Source of the DNA: an uncultured bacterium
GTDB lineage: Bacteria; Patescibacteriota; Gracilibacteria; Absconditabacterales; Absconditicoccaceae
Direction: 5' to 3'
Assembly (NCBI GenBank): GCA_947168815.1
Contig: CAMVNG010000010.1
Span: forward strand, 1-41,492
Length of the DNA: 41,492 nt
The notes under the pieces are model-generated. The model worked only from the letters and a program-made list of their open reading frames with translations. It was not told the origin of the DNA and searched no databases. This document shows, in pieces, positions 2,666-31,110 of the stretch. Made by a program: the position numbers and the translations under genes. The stretch's first letter is position 1. Every line of letters begins with the position of its first letter.

Positions 2666-5359
2666 ATGAAATTAAATAAAAAATATGAACCTCAAAAAAA
2701 AATAATTAATAAAAATTCAGTACAGGCAGATTACTTATTCCCAGTTATCCTTCCTTCTTACGTTAAAATTTCTTGAAAAACGCTCCCTCAATATTTAAAT
2801 CAAGCTATTGAATGGTCTATAAGATCACAAAAATTAGGGAAAAACATCATTCCATGTTTTTTGCGTAATGTTGATAGTATAGGTGATTTTTCTATTTTAA
2901 ATTGAAAAGAACAGATTCCTTTTCCTGCGAAACTCCAGAGATTATATACTCACAAGGAAAAAGCTTATAAAAAAATCCTTCCCGTATTTTCTCAAGTTTT
3001 TTTTCAACAACATTTTGATGCTATTCATAAGTTTTTAGTTTCAGAGAAAAATGTTCAAAATCTTTTAAAGCTCTTTGAAGAAAAAAATCTTTGGAAATTC
3101 AAAGAAGAACTTGTTTATTGGGATATATCAACACAAACCATAGTTGAGAATGATGCAATAGATTGGAGAAAAGAAACTCAAACACAATTAGTAGTAAAGT
3201 GTTTCGTAGAAACTAAAAATGATATTTTTCCTCTTGTTGTTGATGATCCTATGCTTCTCTTTTCAGATGTTGCTGTTATGATTCATAATAATGATAAAAG
3301 ATATAAAAAGCATCTTTGAAAAAAGCTTATCATTCCTGTTATTAATAAATCTATTCCTATTTTATGATCAAGCGATATTGATACTATAAAAAACAATGGA
3401 ATTCAAAGACTAAATCCACTTCTTGATCAAAATACATTAGAGAAGGTAAAAGAATTATGACTTCCTACAGATGAACATTATATTGACGATAGTTGATGTT
3501 TCGGTGAACAAGTCGCAAATTTTTGAGGAAAATCAATCTTTGATTTTACTAGCAACATCATTGAAACTCTTTGAACCATAGGGAATCTAGTATCACAAGA
3601 AGAAGTTGAGCAATTGGTTCCTTATTCTAAAGCAAGTGGTCAACGTCTTATAAAAAAAGTTGTTCCTATGATAATCCTTGATTTTTCTTCATTGCAAGAA
3701 GAATTCTTAACGTGGTTAGAAACAACATTCCCTGATCATATTGAAAAACTTAATTTAAAGAGTTATGAAATCCTCATAGAAACAAAGAATCCATATACTC
3801 AAAAAATCGCTTTACTTAAAAATAATGACTGAAGGTTTGAATCTTTCAATCTGAAAGATTATTATTCTGGAGATGTTTTTTCTTCATTAATTCTTGATCA
3901 ATTAAAAAAAGGACACCTATCAAAAGAATTCTCAATTGAAGAATTGATAGACCTTTTCCTTTTATTACCTGAAGAGGAATGGGAAGATTTAAGTATTCAG
4001 CTTTGAAATACTGACGAAATTAATACATATCGTAAAAATATAAATTTAAAATCTGGTGAAGAAAGTGTTGAAGAACTATTATGATTATTAGATCATATAG
4101 ACTGGATTACCAAACAAAATAATGGTAAATACCTATTCAATACAGAAAAGCTTCTGGGAGATAAACAATTACATACTATTTCATGCACGGATACATTTTT
4201 ACAGGCTTTATCTCTTTTGAGTATATCTACCTCTCATTTTGTATTTCATGTGGATGAATTACCTTCACAAACAATAATCAATTTCTTTTTATTCTTATTC
4301 TTACTTTGAGGAACAGAATGTTCTATTTTTCCTCATGAAGAAGATGAAAAACAAGCTATTAGTCTCCCTGAAAGATTCCCTAAACTAGCAGAAACTTACG
4401 GATGGGAATCTTTAAGATTTTTTCTTTCTCAGCAAGAAAAATATGAAGATAGGAAAATTGAGGATGTTTTCTGATATTTAAAACATTTATGGAATTATTT
4501 TAAAGTGTTATATGAAAATTGAGCATTCCCTGAGAACTATCCTGAGACAGCAGAAGTTGATTGAAAATCAATGTTTATTCTATGAAAATGGAACAATATA
4601 AAATCAAAATTTGAGACAGTTTCATATAGAACAAAAGAGTATGCTGAAGTCATTGTGTCTTTAAAAAAATTCACAAGAGAAGATTTTGCTTGGTATTTTT
4701 CACTCATAAAAGAAGACTCAAATTCTATGAACTTTCTTCTCGCTGGACAGATATATATGGATATTTTAGTACATCTAAAACCAATAATTCCTGAATTTAT
4801 AGCTATGGTAGAACAAGCATTTTTAAGAACAGTTGAAGCTCCTCTTATATCAAAATTCTATTCAGAAACTAAAGATTATAAAGCTAATATTCTATTTGAT
4901 ATCTTTAATGGTATTCAAAAAAGCAAAGAAGAATTATGATTAAAAAAGCACATGCCTATCGAATTTTTCATTCAAGCTAATCCGAATATGCTAGATTTAG
5001 TACAATCATACGAACCTAGTTTGAAACAACTTTTTAATATTAGAGAAATTCAATATTTTTGAACTAATGAAAATTATCCAAAAATCTATAAAGAATTTAG
5101 CATATTAGACATGAATCTTTGAGTTAAGAGTTATGAAGTATCTAAAAAGGAAAGTTCTTTGGATGAATGGGAAAGAGAAAAGAAATCAAAGCAACAAACA
5201 GCAGATTATTTAAGATCTATGCTTATGTCTCTATCTTCTTCTCCGTTAACACCTTCTGAAAAAATAGCAGAGAAACAAAAAGAATTAGATGAAATTATGT
5301 TTGATATTCAATGCTTGGATATAAAAATTCAGAAAGCAAAAATGGAGAAAAAGGGATAA
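2666..5359 (+). CDS. Valyl-tRNA-synthetase-like protein lacking HIGH and KMSKS motifs, 897 aa
   Basis: The 897-aa frame is intact, uses many UGA glycines, and has the length and order of a ValRS-family class I synthetase. Residues 24-50 match the start of the Rossmann fold, but where HIGH belongs the sequence reads SGKTLPQYLNQAIEW. Residues 108-180 lead into the CP1 editing domain, and about 190-232 are clearly CP1-like (DPMLLFSDVAVMIHNNDKRY, then KLIIPVINKSIPIL). Around 555-590 the KMSKS loop is replaced by EDEKQAISL, while the following YGWESLRFF is typical of these enzymes. A helical anticodon-binding-like region and a C-terminal coiled coil (about 832-897), as in ValRS, complete it. It is therefore probably unable to activate an amino acid. 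It could be a tRNA-binding, editing-like or structural pseudoenzyme; a genuine ValRS is expected elsewhere. It starts 62 bp after the surface protein gene. Confidence 0.8.
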
Positions 5360-5446: not shown

Positions 5447-7168
5447 ATGACAAGTGCGGAAAAAAGAAAATCAATACTTATATGGTGAAGTACATTTTGT
5501 TGAATATTCATAGTTTTGTTTTGACTTATTTATTTTTCAAGTATTAATAGTATTCAGCCAGAATTAGAAGAAATTCAAGCAAATCCTGAAGTTGCGAGTC
5601 TTTCAGAAGTTTTTAAGCAATTAACTCTTGATAAACCGTGAAAATTTGCCTCAACACAAGATATCATTGTGACTTCACAAGCAAATGGTAGAGTTTCTAA
5701 AATTTATTATAAAGAATGACAACAAGTAAGCTGATGACAACCTGTTGTTGCACTTTCCGACACCATTGCTAGTTACAAACTTCAAGTTGATAGAGCTAAA
5801 AATAGTTTAAATAGAGCCATTCTTTCAAAACAACAAACAGAATTGCAAATAAATCAACAAATTGAGCAAGCTCAGTTAGCATACGAAAATGCTCAGAATA
5901 CTTTTGAAACGGCAAAAAGATCTACAGAACTTTCAGCTAAAAATGCAGAAATTAATGTTTCATCTGCTGATGTTGGTATTGATACACTAAAAAATAATTT
6001 TTCTGCTGCAAAAAAAGGAACTATTAATTATCTTGATACTGTTATCGATACAGCTGATAAGTTACTTTGAGTAAGCCAATATTATGAGGACAATCTTGAT
6101 TCATGATTAGAAGTATATGTTTGAGCAAAAGACTCAAGTTTAAAAGAAAGGGCTAAACAAGAATTAAGGCAACTTTATACAAAAAGAGATCACATAAAAG
6201 AAATTTCAGACACACCATCAAGTACTGATGAGTTAGGTAAAGCAACCAACGAGCTAGATGAAAGTTTGAAACAAGCATCTAATTTCGCGTGAACTATGGT
6301 TGATGTAATGAGGAATTCAATTAGTTCTGTTGGAACTCTTTCTCAAGCACAAATAGATAGTTATATTTCAACATTTCAGGGACTTCAAGCTAAAAGTGCT
6401 GGAATCTTGGCTGAGTATAAAGCTAAAGTAGATGCACAAGTCAGCAATAGCTGAACCGTTGCCCAAGAACAAGCAAATATTTGATTAGAAAGTACTTTAC
6501 TACAGAATCAAGACAATTTATTTAAAGCGGAAATGGCACTTAAAAACGCCAAATTAGCTCTTGATACAATTCTTGAGAACAAGGATATTCAGTTAGATAT
6601 GCTTTCAAATGCAATTGTTGATGCCAAAATCGCTTATGAAACTGCTCTTACATCTTATAATAAGCTTTCAGTAAGAAGTCCTGTGTCTTGAGTAATTGGG
6701 GAAATCTTAGTCAGTGAATGACAGGATGTTTGAGCATGAACTCAAATATTTAAAGTCTCTGGTACTAAAAAACAACAAATCGAAGTTTATATCACTTCTG
6801 ATGAATATCAATATCTTCAAGATGACAAACCTGTTGAAGTTGTCTATCAAGATAAAATCTTAACATGAAATATTGACGCTATTAGTACTGTTGCAGATAA
6901 AACCAATTTATTTAAAGCAACAATACAAATGGATACAGATATTTCTTTATTGTGAGATATTGCAAAAGTTAGATTTCCAATTAAAATTCAAGAAAATACG
7001 CTTCTTCCGTTAGATCAAGTAAAAATATTGAATGATAATGAATGAGAAATTAAAGTTTGGGATGGAAGTTGAATAGAAAAAAAAACAATTCAAATTAAAA
7101 AAGTTTGGTGAAGCTTCGCAGAATTAAAAGAAGCTCTTCCTTGAAATTTAAAATTAGTAATGAACTAA
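5447..7168 (+). CDS. HlyD/RND-type membrane fusion (periplasmic adaptor) protein, 573 aa
   Basis: Reads as 573 aa with UGA glycines. Residues about 9-33 form an N-terminal membrane anchor. A biotinyl-lipoyl half (about 75-105, NGRVSKIYYKEGQQVSGGQP) is followed by roughly 330 residues of Gln/Ala/Glu-rich coiled coil, then the second lipoyl half (VRSPVSGVIGEILVSEGQDV) and a beta-barrel region. This is the hallmark order of adaptor proteins that link an inner-membrane transporter to the envelope. The coiled coil is unusually long. No ABC or RND transporter lies next to it: upstream is the ValRS-like gene, and downstream come a terminator and a lipoprotein with its own promoter. Its partner must be elsewhere, or it works alone. 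The ATG at 5447 is the only start before the anchor. Confidence 0.87.
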
Positions 7169-7969: not shown

Positions 7970-8716
7970 ATGAAAAGAAATGAAATTTTTACGATAATTA
8001 TTCTTGCAATTATTATTCTATTAATTTTTATTTGCGGTCCTAAGAATTGTAATAACAATGATCATGCCATTACCGTTCAATGAAATTGAGAAGTATATGC
8101 TGCTCCTGATACTGTTATTCTTTCTCTTCGCGTAGAAGAAACAAAGCCTACAACAAAAGAGGCACAACAAACCGTTGATAAAAAAATTGCTCAAATAAAA
8201 TCAATCTTGGATACTTATAGTATTCCTAAATCTGATATTAAAACAACTAACGTAAACACCTATGAATCATTTGATTGGAGAGATTCTTGAAGAGTTTCAT
8301 TGTGATATACCTCTTCTCATTCATTAGAAGTTAAAATCAAAAATAGTACTTCTGAAAATGAATGAACAGCTTGAATAATTATTTCTGAAATTTCAGAAAT
8401 TGGTTGAGTATTAATAAATAATGTTTCATATGATATATATGATAAATCTGCATATTATTCAGAAGCAAGAAAATTAGCTATGGAAAAAGCTTATCAAAAG
8501 GCATCAGAATTGGCAAATCTCTGAGATGTTAGACTTTGAAAACCTATTTCTATTCAAGAAACAAGAAATTATGATTATGCCGTTTCTGCAATGGCTAAAA
8601 ACACTTTCGCAATGGATATGGTTGAAGAAGAAGCTATTAACGATGAAGCTGGAGAGCTTTCACTAGGAGAAATGAAAATATCTTTGGATGTTGACGTATC
8701 ATACCAGATAAAATAA
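7970..8716 (+). CDS. SIMPL-domain (DUF541) protein, 248 aa
   Basis: Reads as 248 aa with UGA glycines. Residues 6-24 are a hydrophobic signal or anchor segment. The rest matches the SIMPL/DUF541 family (as in BP26 and E. coli YggE): an opening strand with APDTVILSLRVEE, a central region IPKSDIKTTNVNTYESF, the repeated helix YYSEARKLAMEKAYQKASELA, and a final strand with MKISLDVDVSY. Family members are periplasmic or surface oligomers of poorly known function. An ATG at 7939 is in another frame and soon stops, so 7970 is used. The gene has its own terminator and stands alone between the lipoprotein gene and the convergent tgt. Confidence 0.85.
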
Positions 8717-28951: not shown

Positions 28952-28979
28952 TTGCTTTTTTTTTATTTGTGGCTATAAT
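28952..28979 (+). promoter_or_regulatory. Promoter of the low-complexity membrane protein gene
   Basis: A perfect TATAAT (28974-28979) with a weak TTGCTT (28952-28957) 16 bp upstream. It overlaps a possible GTG start at 28969, which argues for the ATG at 29017 as the real start. Confidence 0.5.
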
Positions 28980-29016
28980 TGATTTGAGGAATTTTAAATT
29001 ATCAAATTATGGTAAA

Positions 29017-31110
29017 ATGCCAAATACAGATCAAAACACAGGATCAACTCCAGTTGCTTCAAATCAGAATCCAGCTACAGATGAATTCGATTTAGGAATG
29101 TTATCTCAGGATAATAATTCATCAAATGAGACTAGTGATTCTTCTATTGAAACAACACCAACAGTTAGTGAAGAAACTCCTGTTATCACAACAAATTCTT
29201 CTTTGGATTTTAATTTAGATCTTCCTGATTCATATGCTGAAGATCCTAATTCAAATCAATCTGAAAATAAAACAGAAGAACCAGCAGCTGCTCCAGTTAT
29301 AGACTCAGTTGCTCCTGATACTTCTGCAGACAATAATAGTGAAGCAAAAGCTGAAGAATCTTGAATTCCTTCTATTATTTTACCTGAAGCCTCAACAGAA
29401 TCTGTATCTGAAACACCAGTAGTAGCTGAAAATTTGGGAAAAGCTCCAGAAGTAAATTTTGAAGCAAATAATGATCAAACTTCTACAGCTGAACCTGTTT
29501 CAACAGAAAATTCTTGATGAATGTTTGCTAGCACTGAATCAGTTTCTGATTCTGGACAAAATGGATGAGCTCTTTTCTCATCAACACAAGCAAGTGATGA
29601 AACTTTTGTTCCAGATACTACTGATAGTTCAACATCTAACAGTACTGCTCTCTTCTGAGAATCTCCTGTTGATGCCAATTTAAATGAACAGCCATCTGCT
29701 GATATCAACCTAGACGAAGCAACACCGTCTTTGGGGGTTCAGCCACAAAACTGAGAAAGTCTTTCTGATACCTTAAAATTTCAAGAAGAAGTAGAAATAC
29801 CATCAGAAAACACAAGCACATTAGATACATGAAATACGGATCAAGAAGCGACTTCCGCTCCAAATCCATTATTAGAAGAACCAACTCTTGAAGAAGAATC
29901 AACTCTCAATATGGATACTTTAATGAATGAAGAATCAACTGTCGACATTTCTTCTCTTGAAAGTTCTCCACTACAAGAAGCTCCTCAAGAGAACATTGAA
30001 AATTGAGTATCAAATGAACAATCAGTTCAAGATAATACAACAACTTGAACTGTAGACTTAAATACTATGTTGAATCAACCTACTGATCAAGTAATACCTG
30101 CTACTACAGAGACTTCTGAACAAACTGCAACACCTTCAGATGCAGTAGAGACTCCCGTTTCTGAAACAACACCTGGTCAAAACGCAGAAATAGATCCATT
30201 TTTGGCTATGAAGCAAACTCTTGAATGAAAAAATAATACATGATTTCAAGCTACAGACAAACCAACATTGGACCTCAACAATATTCCTTCACAACCACAG
30301 TGAACAAATCCTTTAAAATCAGGATTCTTATCAAAATTAAAAGGTATTTCTTTAGGATGAGGTTCTTCATCAAAAAAATCACTTGTACCAGTCTTATCTA
30401 TACTTGGTATTGTTGTTGCATGAGCATTAGTTTTTATTAGATATCCAGACTTGTTTACAGGACTTATTTCTTCTCAAAACCCTCAACCTGTAGTTCTTCC
30501 TTCAGACCCTGTTGAACCAGAGCATCCATCAGCTGGAAATTTAACAGGTGAATCAACAGGAGATGTTCAAGAACCTATCATAGAACCAGGAACAACAACA
30601 TGAGATGATCAAGAAATTGTTGAAGTTATAGAACCTTCTCCTACTGAAGTTCCTGTCGATGAAAATATTATTAATTGAGGTGATGATGATATTCAAGTAA
30701 TTGATCTTACAAGCGATTCTGATCCTGTAGTTCAAAACGAACAATTTCCATCAACACCTTCTGTTCCTAAAGAACCATCAATACCAGAAACTCCAAATAA
30801 TCCGACCGAAGATCCATCTACTAATCCTGAAGCAGTGAATCCTTTAGAAGCTGTTGAAGGACTTGTTGGACCTATCAATAATAATGATCTTGTTGCGCAA
30901 GAAATTATGCAATATCAAGAACTTGGTGCTAGTTTAAAAGATCAATGAGCAGCTGCTAATAATAAGAAAATGCATAGATATGGAACTGTTCTTGAAAAGA
31001 GCGCTAAGGACCTTATACAACAACTTGAAAATGGTGAAAATATAGATATATCTACATGGATGGAGAAAAAAGCCACATTTGACGATTATGTTGAAAAAGC
31101 AAATGCTTAA
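29017..31110 (+). CDS. Large acidic low-complexity single-pass membrane protein, 697 aa
   Basis: The 697-aa frame has about 450 N-terminal residues that are almost entirely Ser, Thr, Glu, Asp, Asn, Gln, Pro and Ala, with short recurrent blocks such as ESTLNMDTLMNEEST and TVDLNTMLNQP. One membrane helix follows at about 455-475 (LVPVLSILGIVVAGALVFI), then a Pro/Glu/Ser-rich stretch and a short helical C-terminal domain (about 610-697). No signal peptide precedes the acidic part, so it probably stays cytoplasmic with the last 220 residues outside; this is inference. GTG at 28969 would extend it by 16 residues but lies within the promoter. No family recognised. The composition suggests a disordered spacer or scaffold, perhaps of a surface appendage or secretion complex. 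Confidence 0.75.

Follow-up and report, generated by a model that had tools for sequence, protein, structure and literature searches.

Most paralogues of aminoacyl-tRNA synthetases, such as HisZ, PoxA/EpmA and the AsnA-type proteins, have a working active site or have lost domains. The protein described here, a pseudo-valyl-tRNA synthetase (pseudo-ValRS) that we call S, resembles these synthetase paralogues in that a role other than charging is likely, but it retains every domain and has lost the active site (see Table 1 of PMC9437257 for the paralogues). Among known cases, LeuRS-I of the Sulfolobaceae comes closest; this LeuRS duplicate binds tRNA-Leu and forms leucyl-adenylate but does not charge (PMC9437257). 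LeuRS-I and the LeuRS2 of Halobacteria are kept beside an active copy and are needed for optimal growth (PMC9437257). Like S, they are full-length duplicates of a class Ia synthetase, with a disrupted CP1 editing domain and an active copy alongside. However, S is more extreme and inverted. LeuRS-I makes leucyl-adenylate and binds tRNA-Leu, whereas S, judged from its alignment, has neither HIGH nor KMSKS. In addition, it is the native gene that appears to have become the pseudoenzyme in the case of S, and the active copy would be a newcomer that was itself replaced more than once. A literature search, thin on subscription journals, found nothing on ValRS in Absconditabacteria or CPR and nothing on a bacterial pseudo-ValRS.

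The S gene that we analyzed encodes protein P0001 and lies on contig C10 of a 1.29-Mb genome (G000) that is 99.7% complete and that, judging by named relatives, belongs to candidate division SR1 (Absconditabacteria). The window, that is, the whole stretch of DNA that was analyzed, is 41,492 nucleotides long. The features that matter here are:

325 to 849, + strand: c2, a single-pass membrane ectoprotein of about 174 aa, first gene of the c2-c1-S block (topology by eye)
867 to 2603, + strand: c1, a 578-aa envelope protein (topology by eye)
2666 to 5359, + strand: pseudo-ValRS S (P0001), 897 aa, an intact ORF in table 25
S, residues about 1-150 and 330-585: degenerate Rossmann halves
S, residues 150-330: CP1 domain
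S, residues about 390-500: clade-specific helical insert
S, residues 585-755: anticodon-binding helical domain
S, residues 755-897: C-terminal alpha/beta linker and coiled coil
5447 to 7168, + strand: HlyD/RND-type membrane-fusion-like protein, downstream of S

P0001 is a full-length ValRS-like pseudoenzyme with an intact frame, as an earlier note on this DNA had claimed. The ORF contains 19 in-frame TGA codons, decoded as Gly (table 25). A Pfam search of P0001 gave no significant match, and the NCBIfam search matched valine--tRNA ligase models only (TIGR00422, E=1.5e-32). Chains of Thermus thermophilus ValRS (TtValRS) were the sole PDB matches with E<1e-3 in a phmmer search. The main AlphaFold model, made with 26 homologues in the MSA, has a mean pLDDT of 82.4, and its best PDB match in Foldseek is TtValRS (1gax, E=4.7e-26). 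The predicted structure has the domain order and fold of a ValRS, including CP1, which superimposes on 1wk9, the editing domain of TtValRS (Z 17.7, 1.9 A, 141 residues), and the C-terminal region. A weaker model (pLDDT 76.3), made from an MSA of pseudoenzymes with no bona fide ValRS, still recovered the ValRS fold and matched 1gax over 697 residues (Z=17.6), as far as residue 824 of the model. A helical structure is predicted for the terminal coiled coil (831-896), but the alignments barely cover that stretch. Thus, S shares fold, domain order, C-terminal coiled coil and descent with TtValRS and the proteins of TIGR00422. It differs from them in the missing HIGH and KMSKS, the eroded editing pocket, the extra helical insert and the score, 112.6 bits against a curated cut-off of 612 bits.

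The loss of the catalytic motifs, also claimed earlier, is borne out by an alignment of 66 sequences, from whose columns motifs were scored in 22 S and 15 type A (native ValRS) proteins, among others. At the HIGH columns P0001 has '-SGK' (context SGKTLPQYLN), and at the KMSKS columns it has gaps adjoining EKQAISLPERF. Both motifs are kept in 15 of the 15 active type A proteins. Of the 22 aligned S proteins, none has KMSKS and two have HIGH (G004 and G031). A regular-expression check of 11 additional S proteins found HIGH in G069 only, and the context of the single K-x-S/A-K-S match (G062) is the anticodon domain and not the KMSKS site, so that KMSKS is kept in none of the 33 pseudo-ValRSs. The remnants differ among members, for example QLSKS in G005, HLGN in G016 and G033, and HVGQ in G018, indicating that motif erosion proceeded separately in different lineages. 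The loss of HIGH and KMSKS predicts that S forms no adenylate.

The genome that carries the window has a separate, intact valS (C1:384824-387406, L078; 1089.5 bits), and we can rule out that P0001 is its only ValRS, working with a new active site. Two other ORFs of this genome, of 819 aa and 1051 aa, match the ValRS model weakly; we infer that they are probably LeuRS and IleRS. We searched 59 relatives, extracted the ORFs and scanned the 49 sampled genomes of the order; nearly all of the genomes compared are MAGs. Besides S, the SR1/Absconditabacteria family has three kinds of ValRS. Type A is the native ValRS, of ~1000 aa; in 14 genomes (G006-10, 12, 17, 19, 21, 26, 28, 29, 34 and 66) no other ValRS was found, and HIGH and KMSKS are kept in all 14. 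Type B, of 800-860 aa, is distant from bacterial ValRSs in the tree and appears to be archaeal-like, based on its length, which is PRK13208-like, and its ATTRPEL and CCSYGDE signatures. The window's genus and G063 have a bacterial-type ValRS, type C. It lies outside the CPR ValRSs in the tree, which points to horizontal acquisition. A close relative of the type C valS of the window's genus is in G063 (C16:9509-12094, L341; 1442 bits), which belongs to another genus (g14), and the presence of type C in both genera would reflect either two acquisitions or passage between these bacteria.

S was found in at least 33 genomes of the order, spread across one clade, and it is retained in every well-covered genome of that clade; it is missing from G025 only because the contig stops within the neighboring c1. 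A second ValRS was found in 32 of the 33 S genomes: type B in 26, type C in 4 and a second intact type-A-like enzyme in 2 (G027 and G035), with fragments only in G001, G018 and G062. In the remaining genome, G003, none was found in an assembly that is 73% complete, which may be an assembly effect. Each of the 11 genomes that supplied the additional S proteins has another ValRS carrying HIGH and KMSKS. Retention beside three kinds of ValRS makes it unlikely that S is a subunit adapted to any one of them. We also considered that S might stand in for the C-terminal coil that is absent from type B, but this is unlikely, as S is kept equally beside the coil-bearing C and A' enzymes. Outside the family (f3), G037 has both a bacterial-type ValRS (C1:132416-134944, L077) and a type-B-like ValRS (C7:13477-15750, L119). 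Both carry HIGH and KMSKS, and the pair could be a present-day stage of ValRS replacement.

The pseudoenzymes have a single origin. In a ValRS tree built from 516 columns of CP1, the anticodon domain and the C-terminus, the 22 aligned S proteins form one clade (100/100) that is nested within the active type A enzymes (94/89), and the groups within S agree with the rpoB tree. The rpoB tree places the S genomes together, with G009, which has active type A only, beside them in an unresolved position, and with the other type-A-only genomes basal. Furthermore, type A and S are the only groups in which the helical insert of ~100 aa was found (for example, in L064 of G006 and at about 390-500 in P0001). 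Neither Pfam nor the PDB gave a significant match to the insert, a search of the genomes turned up no other copy that was convincing, and we rejected the idea that it is a known or shared domain. The nesting within type A, the agreement with rpoB and the common insert together argue that S represents the native ValRS, which was displaced a single time and has since been inherited vertically. From this tree, which covered 22 of them, we conclude that all 33 pseudo-ValRSs of the order most likely descend from the native ValRS.

S is under purifying selection, although dS is high. The earlier note had claimed selection from the open frame alone, and dN/dS and the clade-wide retention now support it. 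By the Nei-Gojobori method with code 25, dN/dS of S is 0.115 between G001 and G002 (dS 0.92) and 0.17-0.23 in comparisons with G000, where dS is near saturation (1.3-1.9). For comparison, dN/dS is 0.05-0.08 for rpoB, 0.16 for c1 (G001/G002) and 0.037 for the true ValRS of type C (G000/G002). All nine of the 100-codon blocks of S, including those of the former catalytic domain, have dN/dS of 0.065-0.19. These values bear on whether S is a functionless, decaying gene that persists by chance or as an operon spacer. S does diverge fast (about 20% identity between genera), its catalytic residues are lost, and its frame is split in G020 (assembly Ns) and in G032 (which may be an assembly effect). 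However, the frame is intact, at about 790-1020 aa, in 31 of the 33 genomes, dN/dS stays at 0.12-0.23, the fold is recovered from pseudoenzymes alone, and inheritance is vertical and congruent. Decay is thus largely refuted, and we consider it very improbable. A recent pseudogene or an assembly artefact is ruled out by the occurrence in 33 genomes, the vertical inheritance and dN/dS.

The constraint on S is uneven. Of the positions conserved in type A, S retains 0.67 in CP1, 0.65 in the C-terminal linker and coil, and 0.55 in the anticodon domain. In the two Rossmann parts, retention falls to 0.32 and 0.43, and a difference this large between periphery and core was reached in 0 of 5000 permutations. 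For the distal CP1 half (A_G006 326-350), conservation is slightly higher in S (0.43) than in active type A (0.40). An eroded core, a constrained CP1 and C-terminal module, and survival in small genomes together make a non-catalytic binding or scaffold factor most likely.

The partner of S could be tRNA, a different translation protein, or the envelope proteins c1 and c2. In the first case, S might hold, protect or sequester tRNA, tRNA-Val or another, without charging it, comparable to LeuRS-I and LeuRS2. The AlphaFold model, in which the anticodon-binding domain and the C-terminal module keep the ValRS fold, is consistent with such a role, as are the retention of 65% of conserved positions in the C-terminal module, the persistence of individual invariant residues (N610 and K682, for example), and the precedent of LeuRS-I, which binds tRNA yet cannot charge it (PMC9437257). 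However, we found no preferential retention of conserved basic residues in S (p=0.49); a raw excess, which might have been taken as a sign of tRNA binding, vanished under class-tolerant scoring. Between genera, S ranges in net charge from -27 to +22, and the anticodon domain is under weaker constraint than CP1. The basic-residue test and the varying charge weaken the case for tRNA binding, and we regard it as a possible but tentative alternative.

The earlier note had also suggested that S edits mischarged tRNA, which would occur in trans, or that it aids the decoding of UGA, which is read as Gly. CP1 is the best-kept domain of S, as might be expected of an editing factor. However, the editing signatures T-x-RPET and K-x-TPAHD read VVDDPML and RLNPLLD in P0001 and are eroded differently in other S members, and editing signatures are present in the other ValRSs of these genomes. 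Nor does S track the genetic code: sister lineages with an active native ValRS read in-frame TGA as sense without a pseudo-ValRS, and G048 and G057, outside the family, likewise have in-frame TGA and no pseudo-ValRS. Neither suggestion fared well, and we give a role in editing or UGA decoding almost no weight, even less than decay.

The gene order around S raises another possibility, that S is a cytosolic partner of the c2 and c1 envelope proteins, perhaps serving as an anchor or an assembly factor at the inner face of the membrane. By eye, c2 and c1 have a hydrophobic segment at the N-terminus, which is signal-like in c1, and c1 has an Ig/fn3-like ectodomain, a C-terminal transmembrane helix and a short basic tail. 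It lies directly upstream of S on the same strand in 32 of the 33 S genomes, with a gap of 5-93 nt in 20 of 21 measured genomes (232 nt in G020, an assembly with Ns), while the flanks reshuffle: the outer neighbors of the c1-S block vary, the downstream genes are common to subsets only, and an mltG-like gene (YceG-type, named by eye) is upstream of c2 in only a few genomes. The HlyD/RND-type gene adjoins S only in the window's own genus. An older block of RNase J, mltG, c2 and c1 (L261-L271) is conserved across SR1/Absconditabacteria and is found with no adjoining valS in lineages with active type A. In G009 it lies three genes upstream of the active valS, indicating that the linkage of c1 and ValRS may predate the loss of catalysis.

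However, c1 is present in all genomes of the family, including those without S, and weakly across the whole class. Thus, c1 does not depend on S, and we rejected the idea that c1 and c2 are partners of S alone. With few exceptions, lineages with an active native ValRS have c1 away from valS, and since c1 is also universal, the link of c1 and S may be merely inherited gene order; a single ancestral arrangement accounts for much of the adjacency. In addition, S and c1 are separated in G014, and the cytoplasmic tail of c1 has no obvious shift between genomes with and without S. We consider a partnership of S with the envelope proteins doubtful.

Two other features of the window are recorded here. 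A SIMPL/DUF541 protein (7970-8716; PF04402, E 4.6e-38) is encoded two genes past the HlyD-like gene and appears ordinary. Farther downstream, two antisense ORFs overlap almost completely (28969-31110, + strand, 713 aa, and 29007-31076, - strand, 689 aa); both are open in code 25, neither matches Pfam, and GC is raised (35%) in the region 28969-31110.

The best explanation, to which we assign a probability of roughly 80%, is that S is a displaced native ValRS that kept a non-aminoacylation function through several replacements of the active enzyme. We postulate that an archaeal-like type B ValRS was acquired, most likely in the common ancestor of the clade of at least 33 genomes, and that HIGH, KMSKS and the editing pocket of the old native ValRS subsequently disappeared piecemeal, lineage by lineage, while the protein itself was kept. 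S would still have been kept when type B gave way to type C, in the window's genus and in one species of g14, and when a distant native-type ValRS replaced type B in G027 and G035. We suspect that the native ValRS carried a second function independent of aminoacylation, and that S would perform it in the cytosol as a binding or scaffold protein, using the face of CP1 and the C-terminal linker and coiled coil, and would probably be co-expressed with c2 and c1. We see about an even chance that this function was indispensable in the native SR1/Absconditabacteria ValRS before catalysis was lost, and that the pseudoenzyme was therefore retained clade-wide while horizontal transfer repeatedly exchanged the charging enzyme.

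A displaced universal enzyme thus persists, its active site gone, in a lineage with reduced gene sets; at least 33 genomes have it, all small (assembled sizes of about 0.6-1.4 Mb). Genes of this type are easily labelled valS or overlooked in annotation. Evolution has marked the non-enzymatic parts of the protein, with CP1 and the C-terminal module conserved and the core eroded. Whether a bacterial aminoacyl-tRNA synthetase has an essential second job thereby becomes directly testable. If the second function was indeed indispensable before catalysis was lost, the S clade would be a natural experiment in which the moonlighting role of a core enzyme of translation is uncoupled from catalysis.
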